From a bacterium (lineage in GTDB: Bacteria; Zhuqueibacterota; QNDG01; DTFT01), in contig JAFGAX010000070.1 of NCBI GenBank assembly GCA_016933415.1, forward strand, positions 1 through 48,459: a stretch of 48,459 nucleotides of DNA. Reading direction: 5' to 3'. Position 1 is the stretch's first letter. Every line of letters begins with the position of its first letter. Below, piece after piece: positions 2,901-47,428 of the stretch. The notes under the pieces are model-generated. The model searched no databases. It was not told the origin of the DNA and saw only the letters and a program-made list of their open reading frames with translations. The position numbers and the translations under genes are program-made.

Positions 2901-3272
2901 ATGCCCGAATCCATGCTTTCCGTCGCGGACCGGGGCGGGGTGACCGTCGCCACGGTGAAATGCCGCAAGCTGTACCAGCAGGCCGTGCCGGCCTTTCGCG
3001 CGGAAATGCTCGGCCTTGTCGAACAGGGATGCCGGTCCATGCTGGTCGACCTCAGCGGCGTGGACGTGATGAACAGTTCCGCCCTGGGCGTCGTCATCCT
3101 GACCTACGACCGGGTGACCAAGGAAGGCGGACGCTTCGCCGTGGCCGGGCTGGGCGCCATTCTCAAGGAACTTTTCGAACGCATGCACCTGGGGGAGTTG
3201 TTTCCGCTGGCGGGGGATGTGGAGGAGGGAGTCGCGGCGCTGAACGGGCAAGAAAATATCCCTGCCCAATAG
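2901..3272 (+). CDS. STAS-domain anti-anti-sigma factor
   Basis: A 123-aa single-domain STAS protein of the SpoIIAA/RsbV type. The core VDLSGVDVMNSSALGVVIL carries the Ser pair that partner anti-sigma kinases phosphorylate, and the helix-strand order fits a complete domain. Proteins of this family bind and sequester a serine-kinase anti-sigma factor when unphosphorylated. The ATG at 2901 follows GGAAGAAG at 2891-2898 and gives a compact domain; reading further upstream would overlap comM. No RsbW-like kinase is visible in the window, so the partner must be elsewhere. A second STAS protein is at 11188. Confidence 0.85.
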   Translation: MPESMLSVADRGGVTVATVKCRKLYQQAVPAFRAEMLGLVEQGCRSMLVDLSGVDVMNSSALGVVILTYDRVTKEGGRFAVAGLGAILKELFERMHLGELFPLAGDVEEGVAALNGQENIPAQ

Positions 3273-3277
3273 CATGG

Positions 3278-3402
3278 CTATAAAGAACCGTGGGTCACAC
3301 GGTGGGTGCCCCCCTGACGTTTTTTACTTCCACTCGATGGAGGCCTGTAATACGCGTCCAGAGTCGGGCTCCCTGTCTCTCTGATTTGAAGGTTCTTTAT
3401 AG
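3278..3402 (+). ncRNA. Candidate structured RNA (6S-like architecture)
   Basis: A perfect 12-bp inverted repeat (ctataaagaacc, 3278-3289; ggttctttatag, 3391-3402) closes a 125-base segment without a credible gene. Inside, gggtgccc (from 3304) can pair with gggctccc (from 3365) with one mismatch, tgacg with cgtc further in, ttac with gtaa, and cttcca with tggagg around a short loop. A separate small hairpin ccgtg/cacgg (3288-3302) can form in the 5' half. One long rod with an unpaired central region is the architecture of 6S RNA, and CCCCTGA also resembles a 6S segment. It is shorter than typical 6S RNA (about 180 nt), and no terminator T-run follows. Strand is assumed. It may instead be the remnant of a mobile element end. 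Confidence 0.35.
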
Positions 3403-3534
3403 ATGTGGCTGCTACTGGAGCAGGGATCAACACTCCTGTTGCACGGCATCAATTTCCTGAAATTAATCGTGAATGTCAAGTGAAAACGGACGGGCCGGAA
3501 CAAACGGTTCCGTGTTTCGGAAAAGGAGGCGGAG

Positions 3535-19447: not shown

Positions 19448-19523
19448 GCGGGAATAGCTCAGTTGGTAGAGCGTCACGTTGCCAACGTGAATGTCGCGGG
19501 TTCAAGTCCCGTTTCCCGCTCCA
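19448..19523 (+). tRNA. tRNA-Gly (GCC)
   Basis: 76 bases. The acceptor GCGGGAA pairs with TTCCCGC, the anticodon loop gttGCCaac reads GCC, the T loop is GGTTCAAGTCC, and CCA is encoded at the 3' end (19521-19523). Confidence 0.95.
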
Positions 19524-19526
19524 ACT

Positions 19527-19602
19527 GGCGGCGTAGCCAAGTGGCTAAGGCGAAGGTCTGCAAAACCTTTATTCAGCGGTTCGACTCCGCTCGCCGCCTC
19601 CA
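19527..19602 (+). tRNA. tRNA-Cys (GCA)
   Basis: 76 bases, 3 bases after tRNA-Gly. The acceptor GGCGGCG pairs with CGCCGCC, the anticodon in tctGCAaaa is GCA, and CCA is encoded at 19600-19602. Confidence 0.95.
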
Positions 19603-19610
19603 AAGGACCG

Positions 19611-19696
19611 GCCGGGATGGCGGAATAGGTAGACGCAAGGGATTTAAAATCCCTTGTCCCGTAAGGGGCGTGCCGGTTCGATTCCGGCTCCCGGTA
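19611..19696 (+). tRNA. tRNA-Leu (TAA)
   Basis: 86 bases with a long variable arm (tgtcccgtaaggggcg region). The acceptor GCCGGGA pairs with TCCCGGT with one G-T pair, and the anticodon in atTTAAaat is TAA. Unlike the two preceding tRNAs, CCA is not encoded (the gene is followed by CTG). Confidence 0.93.
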
Positions 19697-25680: not shown

Positions 25681-25755
25681 GGTGGGTATAGCTCAGTTGG
25701 TTAGAGCGTCAGGTTGTGGCCCTGAAGGTCACGGGTTCGAGTCCCGTTACTCACC
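25681..25755 (+). tRNA. tRNA-His (GTG)
   Basis: 75 bases including the extra 5' G typical of tRNA-His: GGTGGGTA pairs with TACTCACC over 8 bp with one G-T pair. The anticodon in gttGTGgcc is GTG and the T loop is GGTTCGAGTCC. CCA is not encoded (followed by CAA). Confidence 0.93.
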
Positions 25756-25804
25756 CAAACGGCCGGACTTTTCAGGGTCGTGTTTGACAACCTCGGAAAC
25801 ACTT

Positions 25805-25877
25805 GTCCCCATCGTCTAGAGGCCTAGGACTCAAGATTTTCGATCTTGTAACTGGGGTTCGAATCCCCATGGGGACG
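25805..25877 (+). tRNA. tRNA-Glu (TTC)
   Basis: 73 bases. The acceptor GTCCCCA pairs with TGGGGAC, the anticodon in attTTCgat is TTC, and the T loop is GGTTCGAATCC. CCA is not encoded. Its 3' end and the terminator behind it are duplicated twice downstream (31.2 and 35.2 kb). Confidence 0.94.
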
Positions 25878-36696: not shown

Positions 36697-38973
36697 ATGA
36701 CATCCGAACCTGTGCAGAAATCGGAATCAACGCCTTCCTCCGCTGTTTCCCGCTTTTTCCAATCCATTCTCCAATTGATTTTCTCCATGCCCGCGGCGCT
36801 CGTCATGGCCCTGATATTCGCCGTGTCCATCGCGGCCGCCACGTTCATCGAAGCGCGGAGCGGAACGGACGCGGCCCGGGCGGCGGTGTACAATGCCGCG
36901 TGGGTCGAAATTCTCCTCGTCCTCATCGGGCTGAATCTGGCCGCGAACCTGATCCGGCTCCGTTTATGGCGCAAGGGCAAAAGGACGGTCTTCCTCTTCC
37001 ATCTGGCTTTTCTGTTCATCCTGACCGGCGCGGCTGTCACGCGCCATTTCGGATTTTCCGGAACCATGAACATCCGCGAGGGGGAAGCTTCCGATACGAT
37101 GATTTCAGAGAAGACGTCTCAACCGGTCCGGCTTCCGTTCAGCCTGCGGCTGGAGGATTTCCGCGTGGACCGGTACCCCGGGTCCATGAAGCCGTCGGGT
37201 TTCACGAGCGATGTGACCGTCCTGGATCCGGAAAAGGGGATGGAGAAACCGTATTCCATTTTCATGAACCACATCCTGCGTCATCGCGGGTACCGGTTCT
37301 ACCAGTCCTCGTACGACGACGACGAAATGGGAACCATCCTGACCGTGTCCCGCGATCCGGGCATGGTTCCGACCTATGCCGGGTACGTCCTGCTCGGCCT
37401 GTTTCTGCTGGCCAATCTGTTTGCATCGAACGGCCGGTACCGCAGCCTGGGCCGGACGGTCCGCAATTGGTCAGGCGCCGCACTGGCTCTGTTGTTCCTT
37501 GCGGCTGCGCCGGACACCGCAAGGGCCGGGGACGCTTCCGTTGAAGCATCCGGTATCCGGGGCCGCCGGAACTCGCAATCGGCCGTTGAAAAACACTTCG
37601 GCCGGCTGGCGGTTCAGGACAATCAGGGACGCGTCAAGCCGGTTCAGTCCATGATGCTCGAATGGATGCGGTCCGTTCCGGGCCTCGGGAAATACGGGCG
37701 CGGGGACGCGGACCGGATCGCTTTCCTGTTTTTCGTCCGGCCGGATACGGTTCTCCCGTCCGCGGAGACGGCGGATTTCAGCGCGGCCTCCGGTTACCGG
37801 TTTTTCCCCATGCCGGGCGATCCCGCGGGCCGATGGGTGACCGCTGAGACCGCGGAGAAGAGGCTGAACGCCGCGCCCGAACCGGCCGCGGCTTTCGCGG
37901 TCGAATGGGCCGGCGCCATTCGTGAAGCGGGCCTGCGTTCCCGATGGAAACGCGCGGATTCGCTTATTTCCGTACTGGAGGATTTTCAGACATCCCATGG
38001 GGGCCGCTCCCATCCCGGAAGCGGCAGGCTCGACATGGAGGTGCTCCACAACAGGCTCAATGCGTTTGCCCGTCTGGCGCCGGTCGTCTTCTGGGCGGGA
38101 TTGGCGCTTCTCGTTTTTTCCGTGATCGGATCCTTTCGTCCCGGCCGTCCATGGGCGGCCGCTGAGACGGTTCTGACGGTCGCGCTTCCGGCCTGTTTTG
38201 CGGCGCTGACTTGCGGCCTTGGATTGCGCGCCTTCGTGTCCGGACATGCGCCCTGGACCAACCGTTACGAAACCATGGTCTTCATCGCATGGGCCGGTCT
38301 GCTCGCCGGAATCCTGTTCGGACGGCGGAACCGGCCGGCGCTCGCGGCCGCAGGCATCCTGTCCGGTCTTTTTCTGCTGGCCGCGGCCTCGCCGGGCATG
38401 GATCCAAAAATCAACACGCTCGCGCCCGTGCTGAAATCCGTCTGGTTGATCATACACGTCTCGGTCATCACGTCGAGTTACGGCTTCCTCGGGCTCGGCG
38501 CCGTTCTGGCGCTCTTCAACCTGCTTCTTCTCGGATGGTCGGATGGGGAGCGCGTGCGGCGGACCTTTCTCCGCCAGACAGCGGTCACGGAACGCAGTCT
38601 TCTCGTCGGGCTGACCCTGCTCGCCATCGGAAATTTTCTCGGCGCCGTGTGGGCGAATGAAAGCTGGGGCCGGTACTGGGGCTGGGACCCGAAGGAGACG
38701 TGGACCCTGGTCACAATCATTCTCTATGCGGCTGTTCTTCATTTCAGGCTCGTTCCCGGCCTCCGGGGACCGGCTGCGTTCAATGCCGGCGCGCTGTGGG
38801 CCTTCGGCTCGGTGCTGATGACCTACCTGGGCGTGAACCTGTACCTGTCCGGCCTGCATTCCTACGCATCCGGAGCCAAACCAGGACTGCCGGCCGCTGT
38901 TTTTGCCGCCGCCGGGCTCGCGGCGGCGGTGAGCGCCGCGGCGCTGATCCGGGCGCGGAAGTTCCGTTCATGA
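36697..38973 (+). CDS. ccsBA: Cytochrome c synthase, ResB-CcsA fusion
   Basis: 758 aa. The N-terminal part (about 20-250) is ResB-like, with membrane helices and a periplasmic segment. A helix near 260 and a periplasmic stretch follow (about 280-440), then the CcsA part (about 445-758) with the haem-handling motif WANESWGRYWGWDPKETW near 650 and conserved HVSVITSSYGFLGLG. The fused protein exports haem and attaches it to apocytochrome c (System II). Fusion in one chain is common in epsilonproteobacteria and Bacteroidetes. No c-type cytochrome gene lies in the window. The stop overlaps the rho start (ATGA). Confidence 0.9.
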   Translation: MTSEPVQKSESTPSSAVSRFFQSILQLIFSMPAALVMALIFAVSIAAATFIEARSGTDAARAAVYNAAWVEILLVLIGLNLAANLIRLRLWRKGKRTVFLFHLAFLFILTGAAVTRHFGFSGTMNIREGEASDTMISEKTSQPVRLPFSLRLEDFRVDRYPGSMKPSGFTSDVTVLDPEKGMEKPYSIFMNHILRHRGYRFYQSSYDDDEMGTILTVSRDPGMVPTYAGYVLLGLFLLANLFASNGRYRSLGRTVRNWSGAALALLFLAAAPDTARAGDASVEASGIRGRRNSQSAVEKHFGRLAVQDNQGRVKPVQSMMLEWMRSVPGLGKYGRGDADRIAFLFFVRPDTVLPSAETADFSAASGYRFFPMPGDPAGRWVTAETAEKRLNAAPEPAAAFAVEWAGAIREAGLRSRWKRADSLISVLEDFQTSHGGRSHPGSGRLDMEVLHNRLNAFARLAPVVFWAGLALLVFSVIGSFRPGRPWAAAETVLTVALPACFAALTCGLGLRAFVSGHAPWTNRYETMVFIAWAGLLAGILFGRRNRPALAAAGILSGLFLLAAASPGMDPKINTLAPVLKSVWLIIHVSVITSSYGFLGLGAVLALFNLLLLGWSDGERVRRTFLRQTAVTERSLLVGLTLLAIGNFLGAVWANESWGRYWGWDPKETWTLVTIILYAAVLHFRLVPGLRGPAAFNAGALWAFGSVLMTYLGVNLYLSGLHSYASGAKPGLPAAVFAAAGLAAAVSAAALIRARKFRS

Positions 38974-40386: not shown

Positions 40387-42033
40387 ATGTCTCACCGGCA
40401 GTTGAGAACACCCTCATCCCCCAGAAAAACAAAAGCTTCCAGATTGAAGCCGGCCGGACGGCCGTCCAGGCAGACCGGTGCGGCATTCCAACAGCGGAAG
40501 CCGCCTCAGATCGAAACCGTCAAACAGACACGCGCATCGAAAAGCGGCTCCGCTTCCGCGTACACCGACCGCCTCGCCCTTCTTCTGTCCACCGTGAATG
40601 AATTGTCCAAGTGCAAATCACTGGACGGTCTGTGCCGGAGAGCGGTCACGCTCATCCGGTCGCGTTTTCATTTTGACCGGGCCGGCATCGTTTTCTTCAG
40701 CGCGGACGGCAGAACCCTGCTGGGCAGTTACGGCACGGATGAAAAGGGACGGCTTCGGGACGAGCGCGGACGGTCCGGCCCGGTGCTCGATGCGCATGCG
40801 GCCGAAGTGCGGAAGGGCCGCGTCCGCCTGAAAGTGTTCCGGAACGACATCCTGACGGACGGTTGGGGGAAAACGGTCGGCCGGTCGGATCACGCGATGG
40901 CCGCGCTCTGGGACGGACGAGCCGTCATCGGCCTGCTCAGCGCCGATCAGCTGTTCACGAAGCGCCGGATCACGGCCGACGACGCGCGCATTCTCGAGCT
41001 GTTCGCCGCGTCCCTGGGGCACCTGATCACGTTCAAACGCACGGAAATTGAGCTGGCGGAAACCAAGAACCGGCTCGAATACATACTCGGCGCCACCCGG
41101 ACCAACGTCGACATCATCGACGAAGCGTTCAATCTGCAGTACGTCGATCCGGAATGGGTCCGGCGCTACGGTCCGCCGGCCGGCCGGAAATGCTACGCGT
41201 ACTTCATGGGCCGCGACGCCATGTGCCCGAATTGCGGCATTCCCGAGGCGCTGAAAACCCGCCGGATCACCGTGTCGGAGGAAGTGCTGCCCCGCGAGAA
41301 GAACCGGGTGATCGAGGTTCACACCATTCCCTACCGGGAGCCGGACGGACGCTGGATGGTGGCCGAATTCAACATCGACGTCACGGAACGGAAGCGGGCG
41401 GAGGACCGGATGCGGACTTCCATGAAGGAGAAGGAAATCCTCCTGAAGGAAATCCACCACCGCGTGAAGAACAATCTGCAGATGATCGTCAGCCTGCTGA
41501 ACCTGCAAGCCGGGAAGAACAGCGATCCGAAGATACTCGACACCATCGACGTGATCCGCAGGCGTGTTTATTCCATGGCGGTCCTGCACGAGAAATTGTA
41601 CGGATCCCCCGATCTGTCCGGAATCCGGTTCGACGAATACATCCGGTCCCTGGTCAATGACCTGCCGTCGTGCGGTCAGGACGGCGCCCCGGTGCGGCTG
41701 TCGCTCCGTCTGGAGCCCGTGGTGCTCAATTTCGGGCTGGCCGTGCCCTGCGGACTGATTCTCAACGAAGCAGTGACCAATGCCGTCAAGCACGCCTTCG
41801 CCGGACGGGCCGAAGGCCGCATCGAAATCACGCTGCGGAAGGCCCGCGACGGAAGCGTGCGACTGTCCGTGGCCGACGACGGCGTCGGACTGCCCCCGGG
41901 GTTCGACCCGGCGGTGTCGGACTCGCTGGGATTCAAGATCATCGTGATTCTGCTTGAACAGCTCGGCGGCGGGCTGAAAATGGACACCCGCAACGGCACC
42001 AGGCTCACGATCCACCTGCCGGCGGGAGAGTGA
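40387..42033 (+). CDS. GAF-PAS-HisKA_2 sensor histidine kinase
   Basis: 548 aa. A basic, disordered N-terminus (about 1-55), a GAF-like domain (about 60-210: TLIRSRFHFDRAGIVFFS), a PAS domain (about 225-335) that holds CYAYFMGRDAMCPNCG, and a HisKA_2 kinase core with KEIHHRVKNNLQMI (H357/H358) and HATPase with NEAVTNAVKHAF and DDGVGLPPG. There are no membrane segments, so it is cytoplasmic. The CPNC in the PAS domain could bind metal or be redox-sensitive. The downstream receiver genes on the same strand are likely partners. AGAGGG precedes the ATG. Confidence 0.87.
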   Translation: MSHRQLRTPSSPRKTKASRLKPAGRPSRQTGAAFQQRKPPQIETVKQTRASKSGSASAYTDRLALLLSTVNELSKCKSLDGLCRRAVTLIRSRFHFDRAGIVFFSADGRTLLGSYGTDEKGRLRDERGRSGPVLDAHAAEVRKGRVRLKVFRNDILTDGWGKTVGRSDHAMAALWDGRAVIGLLSADQLFTKRRITADDARILELFAASLGHLITFKRTEIELAETKNRLEYILGATRTNVDIIDEAFNLQYVDPEWVRRYGPPAGRKCYAYFMGRDAMCPNCGIPEALKTRRITVSEEVLPREKNRVIEVHTIPYREPDGRWMVAEFNIDVTERKRAEDRMRTSMKEKEILLKEIHHRVKNNLQMIVSLLNLQAGKNSDPKILDTIDVIRRRVYSMAVLHEKLYGSPDLSGIRFDEYIRSLVNDLPSCGQDGAPVRLSLRLEPVVLNFGLAVPCGLILNEAVTNAVKHAFAGRAEGRIEITLRKARDGSVRLSVADDGVGLPPGFDPAVSDSLGFKIIVILLEQLGGGLKMDTRNGTRLTIHLPAGE

Positions 42034-42137
42034 GCCGGATACCGGTCGGCGGAAGGAAGACCGGCCGGCGCGGCGGCGTACGCACGCGCGGGCCGGCTGC
42101 AATGATTTCATCCTGAAAGAATGCCGAGGAGGCCTGA

Positions 42138-42908
42138 ATGGAAAACGACGTGATTCTGCTCGTGGAAGACGAAAAAATTGTGGCGCTGGAAATTCAGGAA
42201 GCACTGAAGAAGCTCGGATACCAGGTGCCCCTGACCGTTTCGTCGGGGGAGGAGGCGATTCAGAAGGCCAGGGAGATCCATCCGGTTCTGGTGCTGATGG
42301 ACATCATGCTGAAAAAGAAGATGGACGGAATCGAGGCGGCGCGCCGGATCAAGGAGGAGGTCGGCACTCCCATCGTGTTCCTCACCGCCCATGGGGACAA
42401 GGAGACGTTCCTGCGGTCGCAGCTGGCTGAACCGTTTGATTTCATCGTCAAACCGGTCATCATGAAGGAGCTCAGCAAGCGCATCGAAATGGCCCTGTTC
42501 CGCTCCCGGATCGAGAAGGAGATGAAGGAAAAGGAGCAGTGGCTCGCGGACACGCTCGACGGCATTTCGGACGCCATCATCACGACCGACATCCGCGGCC
42601 GCATCCGCTTCGCCAACGCGGCCGCATCGGCGCTGACCGGATGGCTTCACGCCGAACTGATCGACCGCCCCGTTCAGGAGATGATCCGTCTGTCCGACGC
42701 CAAAACCGGCGAGGCCCGCACGGTCTTCGGCGGGAAGATGCTCTACGACGGCACCTATATCCATCCGCTTGAGTCGCTGATGCTGGCCACGCGGAAGAGC
42801 ACGTCGACCGCCGTCACGCTGTATGTGGCCCCGATCCGCAACCACCACGGCCAGCTGGCGGGGGCGGTGATCACGGTCAAGGAGGGGTCGGACCGGATGC
42901 GGCCCTGA
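42138..42908 (+). CDS. Response regulator, receiver plus PAS
   Basis: 256 aa. Receiver domain at about 1-125 with phospho-acceptor D55 (VLMDIML), acidic pair VEDE near residue 10, T in FLTAHG and K in FIVKPV. A PAS domain (about 135-250: WLADTLDGISDAIITTDIRGRIRFANAAASALTGW) follows. No DNA-binding or enzymatic output domain. This layout is common in regulators that hand signals to a following kinase. GAGGAGGCC precedes the ATG. Confidence 0.85.
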   Translation: MENDVILLVEDEKIVALEIQEALKKLGYQVPLTVSSGEEAIQKAREIHPVLVLMDIMLKKKMDGIEAARRIKEEVGTPIVFLTAHGDKETFLRSQLAEPFDFIVKPVIMKELSKRIEMALFRSRIEKEMKEKEQWLADTLDGISDAIITTDIRGRIRFANAAASALTGWLHAELIDRPVQEMIRLSDAKTGEARTVFGGKMLYDGTYIHPLESLMLATRKSTSTAVTLYVAPIRNHHGQLAGAVITVKEGSDRMRP

Positions 42909-42930
42909 ACCGCCGTCCGCCCGGCATTTT

Positions 42931-43320
42931 ATGAAAATACTGGTCGTCGAGGACGAGCGCATCCTTTCGCTCAATATCAAACGGTACCTCGCCCGTTTCG
43001 GTCACAACATCTGCGGCACGGCCGAGAACGCCGAGGACGCCGTTGATCTGGCCGGCCGCCACAGGCCGGAACTGATCCTGATGGATGTCAGGCTGAAGGA
43101 CGGAACGGACGGGATCGACGCGGCGCTCCGGATCCGGTCCTTCCTGGACTGCCCCATTCTGTTCACGACAGCCTTCAGTGACGCCGATTCGATCCGGCGC
43201 ATCCGCGCGGTCGAGCGGTCCGACCGTCTCTCCAAGCCGTACGACCTGGCCGGGCTCGCGGCCGCAGTCGGACGGATCATTGAAACGGCGGACGGCCGGA
43301 GCGGTTCCCCGGCAGGCTGA
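42931..43320 (+). CDS. Single-domain response regulator
   Basis: 129 aa: one receiver domain with VVEDER at the N-terminus, phospho-acceptor D52 (ILMDVRL), FTTAFS and RLSKPYD. It sits 22 bases after the REC-PAS gene and before a second kinase, so it is probably part of the same phosphorelay. Confidence 0.87.
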   Translation: MKILVVEDERILSLNIKRYLARFGHNICGTAENAEDAVDLAGRHRPELILMDVRLKDGTDGIDAALRIRSFLDCPILFTTAFSDADSIRRIRAVERSDRLSKPYDLAGLAAAVGRIIETADGRSGSPAG

Positions 43321-43392
43321 ACCGCCGTCCGGCGGAACGCCGGGGCCTGCGGGACGTGCGGAACCGCGCGGCCGATCCGAAAGGAGCCCTGT

Positions 43393-45099
43393 TTGCCATT
43401 CGTCTCGATTCCCGTGATCTGCATGGCTGCGGTCACGTTCTACGTCTCTTTCGTTCATTTTCTGCTGTATACCCGCCGCCGCCATCATCCGGAGGATCTG
43501 TCCTTCGCCATTCTCTGCCTCACCATGGCCTGCTATGACGCATTCAGCGCGGGCGCATACGCGGCGTCGAACGTCGCGGAAGGGTTTCAGTGGCAGAAGG
43601 CCCAGGTCGCAACCCTTTCTCTCATCGGCGCGGCCTACACCTGGTTTGCGACCGATTACGCCCGGCACCGGCGCAAATTCGTCCGGAACGCGGCCGTGGT
43701 TTTTTTCACGGTTTCGGCATTTCTCGTCCTGTTCGTGAGGGAAAATCTGTTCTGGCGCGTTTCAGAACCCGCGGTCAAGCGCCTGGGCCCGTTCCTGGGA
43801 ATCCGCATCACCTATCACGAGGTCGCGCCCGGCCTGTTCACCGAATTTCTGGGCGTCATGGGCTTTCTCGTGTTCGTGTACGTGTTCAGCCTGGTCGCCG
43901 GCGTGGCCCGGAAGGACCGGCTGAGGAGCCTGCCGCTTTTCCTGTCCGCCCTGATTTTCTGCGCCGGCCTCGTGAACGACGCGCTCGTGCACAGCGGCCT
44001 GCTTCGGAATTTCTATATCATTGAATACGCCTACATGGCCATTGTCGTGCTCATGGCCCACATTCTCTCGAACGACGTGGTGGAGAGCGCCGCGTTGAAG
44101 GAGGCGTTTCAGTCGTCCGAGCGGAAATACCGGAGCCTGGTGGACAATTCCCTGGTCGGCATTTTCATCGCCCAGCAGGGACAGATCCGCTTCTGCAACC
44201 AGCAGTTCGCCCGCGTGTTCGACTGCGCGGACGAAAAGACCGCGCGGCTCCACCCCGTGGAAGCCTTCATGCCGTCGGACGATGACACCGAGCCGTCGCA
44301 CTGGATTTACGAGGATTTCGAACTGCCGCAGCGGTTCGAGCGGAGGGGCCGCACCCTGTCGGGCCGCGTCATCGATCTCGAGGTGCTGACCACGCCGATC
44401 GTCTTCGAATCGAAGCCCGCCGTGCAGGGATCGATTCTCAACATCACGGTCCGCAAAACCGCGGAGGCGCTCCTGCAGCGGAACCTGAGCGAGAAAAACA
44501 TCCTTCTGAAGGAGATCCACCACCGGGTCAAGAACAACCTGCAGATCATCATCAGCCTGCTCAACCTGTCCTCCGCCCGGCTGTCAGACTCCGAGATCCA
44601 GCGCGCGCTGGAGGACAGCAACCAGCGGATCCGGACCATGGCCATGATCCATGAGCGCCTGTACCAGTCGGAGGATTTCGAGCGGATCGATTTCCGCGAA
44701 TACACCGTGACCCTGGTGTCCGACCTCATCGTATCGCACCACAGCGGCAACCGGATCAGCCCCCGTTTCGACCTCCGGGTGGGGATATTGAGCCTCGATC
44801 TGGCCATTCCGTGCGGTCTGATTCTCAACGAGCTGGTCACCAACGCGGTCAAGCACGCGTTTCCGGACGAGCGCAGCGGTTTCATCGCGGTGCGGTTCAC
44901 GGAGGACAAGGGCGGCGATTACATCCTGGAAGTCTCGGACGACGGCGTCGGCATGCCCGGACCGCCGGACGCGGAGGGCGCGGATTCGCTCGGCATGAAG
45001 CTCGTGCATGTGCTGACCCAGCAGATCGAGGGACAGCTGGAATTCAGGAACGCGGGGGGATTGACGGCGACGGTCACATTTCCGAAACCGGGAGCGTGA
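43393..45099 (+). CDS. Membrane 7TM-PAS-HisKA_2 sensor histidine kinase
   Basis: 568 aa. Seven probable membrane helices in about 1-225 (starting IPVICMAAVTFYVSFVHFLLY), a PAS domain (about 240-360: YRSLVDNSLVGIFIAQQGQIRFCNQQFARVF), then HisKA_2 with KEIHHRVKNNLQII (H376/H377) and HATPase motifs NELVTNAVKHAF and DDGVGMPG. The sensor half resembles the 7TM sensing modules of other bacterial kinases. The TTG start follows AAGGAG at 43381-43386 with good spacing. No obvious ligand. Confidence 0.87.
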   Translation: MPFVSIPVICMAAVTFYVSFVHFLLYTRRRHHPEDLSFAILCLTMACYDAFSAGAYAASNVAEGFQWQKAQVATLSLIGAAYTWFATDYARHRRKFVRNAAVVFFTVSAFLVLFVRENLFWRVSEPAVKRLGPFLGIRITYHEVAPGLFTEFLGVMGFLVFVYVFSLVAGVARKDRLRSLPLFLSALIFCAGLVNDALVHSGLLRNFYIIEYAYMAIVVLMAHILSNDVVESAALKEAFQSSERKYRSLVDNSLVGIFIAQQGQIRFCNQQFARVFDCADEKTARLHPVEAFMPSDDDTEPSHWIYEDFELPQRFERRGRTLSGRVIDLEVLTTPIVFESKPAVQGSILNITVRKTAEALLQRNLSEKNILLKEIHHRVKNNLQIIISLLNLSSARLSDSEIQRALEDSNQRIRTMAMIHERLYQSEDFERIDFREYTVTLVSDLIVSHHSGNRISPRFDLRVGILSLDLAIPCGLILNELVTNAVKHAFPDERSGFIAVRFTEDKGGDYILEVSDDGVGMPGPPDAEGADSLGMKLVHVLTQQIEGQLEFRNAGGLTATVTFPKPGA

Positions 45100-45204: not shown

Positions 45205-45618
45205 TCAGGCCGGCGGTTTGACGGGAGGCGTTCTTTTCAGCAGTTTGTCGATCATGCCGAGCAGTTTTTCCGGCGAATCACTGCCCTTGATGCTGTAGTA
45301 ATTGGCCCCCAGGTTGATCGCCTTCTGAACATCCGCGAAATCCTTCAGCGTGGTCAGCACCAGCACGGGGATCGCCCGGGTGGCGGCCTCCCCGCGGATC
45401 TTCTTGAGCACTTCCAGGCCGTGAATGTCCGGCAGGATCATGTCCAGGCAGATGAGATGCGGGTTGTGTATCTGGGCGGCCGTCCAGCCCTGTTCGCCTG
45501 TTTCGGATTCGATGACGTCATAGCCCGCGGATTCCAGAACCTTTTTGTAGAAGAGCCGGATGGTGGGGGAATCCTCGACCAGAAGAATCTTGAATTTTTG
45601 TGTCTTGTCCATTTGCAT
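45205..45618 (-). CDS. Single-domain response regulator
   Basis: 137 aa: one receiver domain with LLVEDSPTIR at the N-terminus, phospho-acceptor D59 (ICLDMILPDIHGLEVL), VLTTLKDF and SIKGSDSPEKLL. The usual KP after the last strand is KG here. It is on the minus strand, convergent with the 7TM kinase. A start at 45612 (MDKTQKF) is equally possible; neither has a strong ribosome site. Confidence 0.85.
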   Translation of the reverse strand: MQMDKTQKFKILLVEDSPTIRLFYKKVLESAGYDVIESETGEQGWTAAQIHNPHLICLDMILPDIHGLEVLKKIRGEAATRAIPVLVLTTLKDFADVQKAINLGANYYSIKGSDSPEKLLGMIDKLLKRTPPVKPPA

Positions 45619-45980
45619 TTTGAATGAGTTAGGACCTTGTTTGATCAGGTTATAATATCTGCAATAGTCATACCAAATAATGTATTGTTGTTGAAAAAAA
45701 TACTTAAGCCCATCAAAAACATATATTAATATAAATTTTCAATCCATCTGTGTCCGTCTCAGGACTGAAAAATGTGGCTGGAATCCGTCGATGTCCCTGA
45801 TCCACGCAACCGCCGTCTCCGCGTCCCGTTCCGGCCGAACTCGCGCTTGATTCCATCTGATGTTTTTAATACATTGTTCCGAACCGGATCAATCGCCGGC
45901 TCTCCCGGTTGTCCATCCGGATCGCGGGAGATGCCGCATCGCCCGGCGTTCATCCAAATGACGAGAAGGGAGAAACGGAC
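45619..45980. other. Divergent intergenic region before the ATP-sulfurylase homologue
   Basis: 362 bp, AT-rich in the first 120 bases and GC-richer after. Promoters for both directions probably lie near 45650-45745 (several TATA-like words), but no pair fits well enough to call. The short frame at 45772-45984 on the plus strand has no protein character. Confidence 0.4.
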
Positions 45981-47132
45981 ATGAGTCAGCTGCCCCATGG
46001 CGGAGTCCTGATCAACCGGTACACCGATCCGTCGCTTGCGGACTCCCTGACCGAACGCTGCGGCCGCCTGAAATCGTGGCAGCTTTCGGATTCGGAACTG
46101 TGCGACCTGGAAATGATCGCCTCCGGCGCCTACAGCCCGCTGACCGGATTCATGGGCCGCAGCGATTTCAAGGCCGTTCTGGACAACCACCGCCTGTCCA
46201 AGGGCCTGCCCTGGACGGTGCCGATCCACATCACGGTTCCGGTTTCATTCGCATCCTCCATCCGCTCAAGCGAGGAAATCGCTTTACTCGACGAATTCCG
46301 CAAGCCTGTCGCGATCCTTTCCGTTTCCGACATTTTCGAGTACAATGCGCTGGAATACGCGCACAAGGTGTTCAAGACAACCGACGTGAAACATCCCGGC
46401 GTGTCCGCCCTCTACGCCATGGAGCCCCGCATGCTGGCCGGGGAGGTGACGGTTCTGAGGCGCCGCAGCCACCGGACATTCAACCGGTACCGTCTGGAGC
46501 CGTCGGAAATCCGCGACCTGATCCAGGACCGGAAATGGCGCACAACGGCCGGTTTTGCGTCCGTGGAAACCGTTCATCGGAGGGAGGAATACCAGATCAA
46601 GTGCGTGATGGAAACGGTCGACGGACTGCTGATGCATCCGTTCGTCGGCAAGGCGGCGCCCGGGGAGATCGATCCCGAGGTCCGCATGAAGTGCATCGAG
46701 GCCCTGGTCGACGGTTATTTCGCGAAGGACCGCGTGCTTCTGGCGGCGCTGCCGGGCCGCCCGCGCGCCATGGGCGGACGCGAGGCGGTCTTTCAGGCCA
46801 TCGTGCACAAGAATTTCGGGTGCACGCACTTCATCGCGGGATCCGATTACACCGCGCAGGAGCGCAGCGAGGCGCGGGATCTGATTTCACGGTTCGAGGC
46901 GAAGGAGCTCGGCATCACGCCGATGTTCGTGGACGATGCCTTCTACTGCAAGGCGTGCGGGACCATGGCCACCGAGCGGACCTGCCCGCACACCGGCGTG
47001 GGCCGGCTGTCCTTCAGCGGCGCCGCGATTCAGGATCTGCTGCGGAAGGCGAAACCCCTGCCCCTGGAGTGCACGCGCGCCGAGATCGGCTTGATCATGC
47101 TCGAAGCGGTGCGGGACGCGAAAAAGCCGTAG
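45981..47132 (+). CDS. ATP sulfurylase homologue with altered active site
   Basis: 383 aa, similar in length and order to prokaryotic sulfate adenylyltransferase (Sat). Conserved parts: SGAYSPLTGFMG near 50, VDGLLMHPFVG near 214, RMKCIEALVDGYFAKDRVLL, GREAVFQAIVHKNFGCTHFI near 270, and the zinc-binding FYCKACGTMATERTCPH (C323, C326). But the catalytic motif, normally QTRNPxHRAHE, reads ASVETVHRREE at 193-203, and the second nucleotide motif GRDHAG reads GSDYTA at 287-292. Sulfate activation is therefore doubtful. No APS reductase or other sulfur gene is in the window. AGAAGGGAG precedes the ATG. Confidence 0.85.
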   Translation: MSQLPHGGVLINRYTDPSLADSLTERCGRLKSWQLSDSELCDLEMIASGAYSPLTGFMGRSDFKAVLDNHRLSKGLPWTVPIHITVPVSFASSIRSSEEIALLDEFRKPVAILSVSDIFEYNALEYAHKVFKTTDVKHPGVSALYAMEPRMLAGEVTVLRRRSHRTFNRYRLEPSEIRDLIQDRKWRTTAGFASVETVHRREEYQIKCVMETVDGLLMHPFVGKAAPGEIDPEVRMKCIEALVDGYFAKDRVLLAALPGRPRAMGGREAVFQAIVHKNFGCTHFIAGSDYTAQERSEARDLISRFEAKELGITPMFVDDAFYCKACGTMATERTCPHTGVGRLSFSGAAIQDLLRKAKPLPLECTRAEIGLIMLEAVRDAKKP

Positions 47133-47137
47133 GCGGG

Positions 47138-47428
47138 TCAGCGCATTTCAACGAGGGTGGCGCCCCAGCCCCCGGATTCGGGAGGGGCGTCATAAAAACG
47201 GAGCACGTCGGGGCGCGACTTGAGGAAACGGATCACCTCGAATTTCATCCGGCTCCGGCCCTTGCCGTGCACGATGCGGAGCGAGCGGAGGCCGAGCGAG
47301 ACGGCGTTTTCCAGGAACGCGCCGAGCACTTCGGGCGCCTGTTCGGGAAAGAACCCGTGCAGGTCGAGCGTGTCTGTGACCCGCACAGGCTCCGGATAAT
47401 ACAGATCCCCTTCGTCCTGCGGCGGCAC
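47138..47428 (-). CDS. Smr-domain protein
   Basis: 96 aa, a stand-alone Smr domain: DTLDLHGFFPEQAPEVLGAFLENA (the LDLHG motif), RIVHGKGRSRMKFEVIRFLKS (the HGKG motif) and a C-terminal GGWGATLVEM. Smr domains bind or nick nucleic acids, as in the C-terminus of MutS2. The GTG start at 47428 is 3 bases after the stop of the lipoprotein gene. Convergent with the Sat homologue, with 5 bases between. Confidence 0.85.
   Translation of the reverse strand: MPPQDEGDLYYPEPVRVTDTLDLHGFFPEQAPEVLGAFLENAVSLGLRSLRIVHGKGRSRMKFEVIRFLKSRPDVLRFYDAPPESGGWGATLVEMR

Follow-up and report, generated by a model that had tools for sequence, protein, structure and literature searches.

The window, a 48,459-nucleotide stretch spanning contig JAFGAX010000070.1, carries at positions 45981-47132 (+) a gene for a degenerate, stand-alone ATP sulfurylase (Sat) homologue of 383 amino acids, identified from the open reading frame, Pfam, an AlphaFold model and structural matches. 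The reading frame runs to residue 383 with no internal stop and is preceded by the ribosome-binding site AAGGGAG (45966-45972, +), which upstream alignment shows to be conserved in the sister species, in keeping with a preliminary description of this DNA that had called the gene intact with a good ribosome site. A search upstream of the gene for a riboswitch or other structured RNA returned none. Its neighbours are a divergently transcribed single-domain response regulator (45205-45618, −) and a convergent Smr-domain gene (47138-47428, −), both conserved in the sister species, and the Sat-like gene therefore stands alone, without an adjacent APS kinase. The response regulator adjoins a cluster at 40387-45099 in which two HisKA_2 sensor kinases (40387-42033 and 43393-45099) enclose two further response-regulator genes (42138-42908 and 42931-43320). 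Elsewhere the window holds one gene in which a ResB-like domain is combined with a cytochrome c assembly domain of CcsA type (36697-38973), a 6S RNA match (3255-3429, −; 46.5 bits against an Rfam gathering score of 46.4) and small tRNA clusters at 19448-19696 (three genes) and 25682-25877 (two genes).

Pfam domains cover the full length of the protein in the arrangement that defines the Sat fold family, with an N-terminal PUA-like domain (PUA_2, residues 5-160; 45993-46460, +; 1.6e-45; dN/dS 0.086 against the sister species) followed by the ATP-sulfurylase catalytic domain (PF01747, residues 169-374; 46485-47102, +; 4e-54). The AlphaFold model (pLDDT 91, pTM 0.89) has ATP sulfurylases as its top structural matches, the first being that of M. 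thermolithotrophicus (8A8D), and the fold is thus conserved. Translation and alignment also place a complete Cys3-His zinc site, CKACGTMATERTCPH (C323, C326, C335 and H337; 46947-46991, +), in domain III, as in zinc-type Sats. These results agree with the initial identification of the gene as an ATP sulfurylase homologue with fold markers and zinc site kept. The protein scores below the cut-offs of the two closest NCBIfam sulfate adenylyltransferase models (NF003166, 351.7 < 387; TIGR00339, 272.7 < 322.95).

Replacement of the substrate-binding loops

Alignment bears out the two motif replacements originally read from the sequence, in the RNP/HxxH loop (ASVETVHRREE for QTRNPxHRAHE, residues 193-203; 46557-46589, +) and in the GRD loop (GSDYTA for GRDHAG, residues 287-292; 46839-46856, +), and extends the losses well past them. 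The GxxKxxD loop reads GKAAPGE, with Lys and Asp lost (residues 223-229; 46647-46667, +), the strand-10 loop reads PRAMGG for MRYAGP (residues 261-266; 46761-46778, +) and SGTxxR has become SGAAIQ, in which the pyrophosphate-binding Arg is Gln (residues 346-351; 47016-47033, +). The loops of functional ATP sulfurylases, namely QxRNPxHxxH, GRDHA, GxxKxxD and the SGTxxR arginine, are accordingly all missing from this protein. Conserved residues lost beyond the two main motifs are K226, D229, M261, Y263, P266, H272, R276 and R351, and the Tyr-Gly that follows the GRD loop is deleted. A comparison with 48 relatives that are canonical or nearly so yields 76 positions with at least 90% conservation; 25 of these are altered here, mostly in the substrate groove, and 22 of the altered states are common to the window protein and its sister, the three exceptions being position 226 (changed in the sister too) and positions 369 and 373 (where the sister has the consensus). 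The losses include an Arg at 195 that is invariant in 48/48 relatives and near-invariant Arg residues at 288 and 351, whereas the first His of HxxH (H199) and G287 and D289 of GRD are kept.

When residue roles are transferred from the A. vinosum ATP sulfurylase (PMC3779200), in whose numbering Q199, R201 and A299 bind sulfate, R201 and N202 the alpha-phosphate, and N202, H208 (the second His) and R365 (of SGTxxR) pyrophosphate, while K234 and D237 belong to the mobile GxxKxxD loop and R296 and H298 contact the ribose, the equivalents of these residues prove to be changed in the window protein. Among charged residues, four Arg and one Lys are lost and two Glu gained; net charge at the groove-loop positions is −1 in the window protein and −2 in its sister, whereas canonical proteins average about +2. 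ATP sulfurylase activity has very likely been lost.

Conservation and selection in a two-genome clade

The genus has one other genome (JAUCQC01 Bin_019; G001/L032), which holds an orthologue with 93% identity, likewise located between response regulator and Smr genes. Its motifs are ASVETAHRREE and GSDYTA, with V198A as the one difference within the new motifs, so the replacements are not a chance reading. On the point raised in the preliminary description, conservation in a clade as opposed to uniqueness to a single sequence, the changes are common to both genomes of the genus and thus not unique to one, the clade amounting to two genomes. The nearest relatives beyond the sister have at most 43% identity and canonical motifs; none above that value was present in 82 genomes covering the whole phylum or in 396 from the phylum to which locus L034 belongs, and viral contigs contained no close relatives of the variant. 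A peptide-pattern scan of all genomes in the collection, which requires exact 8-residue matches and may miss relatives at 50-70% identity, recovered the sister and otherwise canonical or fused forms only. The tree groups the window and sister proteins with 100/100 support, at the end of a stem branch of 2.34 changes per site; the pair lies within the canonical zinc-type Sats, its exact position among them being weakly supported. We caution that the variant is defined by two sequences, both from incomplete metagenome-assembled genomes (76% and 84% complete) of one genus.

Between window and sister, the Sat-like gene has a dN/dS of 0.12 at a dS of 0.36, similar to the values for the flanking response regulator and Smr genes (0.13 and 0.11), which argues that the gene is maintained by purifying selection and upholds the earlier statement that it is not decaying. 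Constraint on the groove is nevertheless relaxed: the groove loops differ at 7/51 positions (13.7%) in the variant pair and the rest of the protein at 18/317 (5.7%), compared with 1/357 and 198/2213, respectively, in seven canonical sister-species pairs (Fisher p = 7e-7 for the loop-versus-rest contrast between variant and canonical pairs). This contrast is strong but not independently replicated, given one variant pair and loop boundaries chosen post hoc, drawn from motif positions after an initial domain-wise look at dN/dS. In canonical Sats the N-terminal domain evolves faster than the catalytic domain, but in the variant pair it evolves more slowly (p = 0.003). Constraint in the variant pair has shifted off the active site, although faster groove evolution could alternatively reflect adaptation to a new substrate.

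Pathway context and interpretation

Within the phylum, 27 genomes with a canonical Sat were checked; all have an APS kinase, which in 26 of them lies within 2 kb of a Sat gene or is fused to it. The exception, G017, is the only Sat-bearing genome among those checked to have sulfite-reductase-family genes, which it carries on the same contig as Sat (G017:C58:13801-15624). From this pairing of Sat genes with APS kinase we infer that Sat in the phylum mostly serves PAPS synthesis. By contrast, APS kinase (PF01583) had no match in either variant genome; since these are 76% and 84% complete, its absence is likely but not proven, and the missing part could hold such a kinase or another Sat. CysH/CysD, sulfite reductase and AprA likewise gave nothing above cut-off in the two variant genomes (76% and 84% complete), but the absence of CysH/CysD and sulfite reductase was dropped as specific evidence, most canonical-Sat genomes of the phylum also being without clear matches. 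Phylum-wide, matches to CysH and sulfite reductase are few or weak; the informative contrast is that in APS kinase.

We consider it probable that the gene, once part of a sat-cysC module that made PAPS, now encodes a pseudoenzyme and that its folded protein is kept under selection for a non-catalytic role. It would descend from a normal zinc-type ATP sulfurylase making PAPS, in this phylum nearly always encoded beside an APS kinase; in the ancestor of the genus the APS kinase would have been lost and the sulfurylase groove rebuilt, such that ATP, sulfate and pyrophosphate would no longer be bound. Purifying selection would then have kept the folded protein, which most likely serves as a scaffold or regulates a partner by binding it with its N-terminal domain and the surface that remains, as inactive sulfurylase-like domains do within APS kinases from Thiobacillus denitrificans and Entamoeba histolytica. 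The gene is maintained although its catalytic residues are gone, as expected of a pseudoenzyme, the loss of activity itself being predicted from sequence. Against this reading stand the small base of two sequences from incomplete genomes and the retention of H199, G287 and D289.

A non-catalytic role is the best single explanation, and a new activity is possible. More broadly, once PAPS synthesis had been lost, the stand-alone ATP-sulfurylase fold of this uncultivated genus may have been recruited for some new ligand or partner, whether in signalling or regulation or as a new enzyme, a possibility we hold only tentatively. The preliminary description had thought a pseudoenzyme or a new nucleotidyl-transfer activity likely. 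The first option has gained from the loss of the sulfate, alpha-phosphate and pyrophosphate ligands, from loops that now vary more than any other part of the protein and from the failure to find an APS-using enzyme in either genome; the second, now the less likely of the two, has lost ground through the missing triphosphate-binding residues, the acidic groove and the loop differences between two sister species. A neofunctionalised enzyme, with the groove rebuilt for another nucleotidyl transfer or reaction around a new active site of S194, V195, E196, H199, E202, S288, D289, Y290 and T291, would fit the near-identity of the new motifs in both species (V198A excepted), the retained H199, G287 and D289, and a long stem branch (2.34) followed by purifying selection. 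We nonetheless consider it unlikely because nearly all phosphate ligands are gone, the gene is alone, without pathway context, and the groove loops differ more between sisters than the remainder does, unlike an active site.

Continued ATP sulfurylase activity, unusual or weak and relying on alternative residues, would agree with the conserved fold, zinc site, domain order and H199, but is very improbable in view of the lost Arg residues at 195, 288 and 351, the scores under the NCBIfam cut-offs, the lack of a detected downstream APS-using enzyme in either variant genome and the reported inactivity of TdAPSK of T. denitrificans despite its milder changes. A pseudogene in early decay would explain the missing pathway partners and loosened groove loops, and is the least credible reading, with the frame intact in two species at this divergence, dN/dS equal to that of neighbouring genes, and ribosome site and synteny conserved.

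Returning to the pseudoenzyme reading, annotation pipelines could call this gene a sulfate adenylyltransferase, and sulfate activation would then be inferred in an organism probably incapable of it. A free-standing inactive sulfurylase, selected without its partner, would also offer a clean case for the role of the fold without catalysis.

Comparison with known sulfurylases and sulfurylase-like domains

The window protein resembles the zinc-bearing, Sat-type enzymes of M. thermolithotrophicus (8A8D) and T. thermophilus (1V47) in domain order, fold, zinc site and about 35% identity (TM 0.88 for its model against 8A8D), but their RNP/HxxH, GxxKxxD, GRD and SGTxxR loops are replaced in it. No stand-alone Sat pseudoenzyme was found in the literature searched, in which inactive sulfurylase domains are known only as parts of APS kinases. 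PMC13213808 and PMC6715247 describe such domains in the T. denitrificans and E. histolytica enzymes as stabilising or activating the kinase, and report TdAPSK (3CR8) to be without sulfurylase activity. The T. denitrificans domain (QARQPMHRAQ and GGEHQP) shares with the window protein the sulfurylase fold and the loss of the RNP Asn, the second His of HxxH and the GRD Arg; it is fused to APS kinase and proposed to stabilise the hexamer of that kinase, whereas the window protein stands by itself and has changed further. In E. histolytica an inactive sulfurylase fold is likewise kept for a non-catalytic purpose, kinase activation (PMC13213808), but the domain is fused to the kinase and has lost one substrate-binding loop, a different set of residues from that lost here.

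In Sulfuricaulis, a fusion of Sat to APS kinase (L038:5893-7818; closest PDB match T. denitrificans 3CR8) likewise contains a degenerate sulfurylase domain, with a degenerate GRD loop (EHDYDD) and an altered RNP loop. It differs from the window protein in being a TdAPSK-like fusion, and its degeneration is probably an independent loss because the tree puts it on a long branch of its own. The window protein, which carries no APS kinase domain, is probably like TdAPSK and EhAPSK in being a pseudo-sulfurylase, but it lies outside that fused family.
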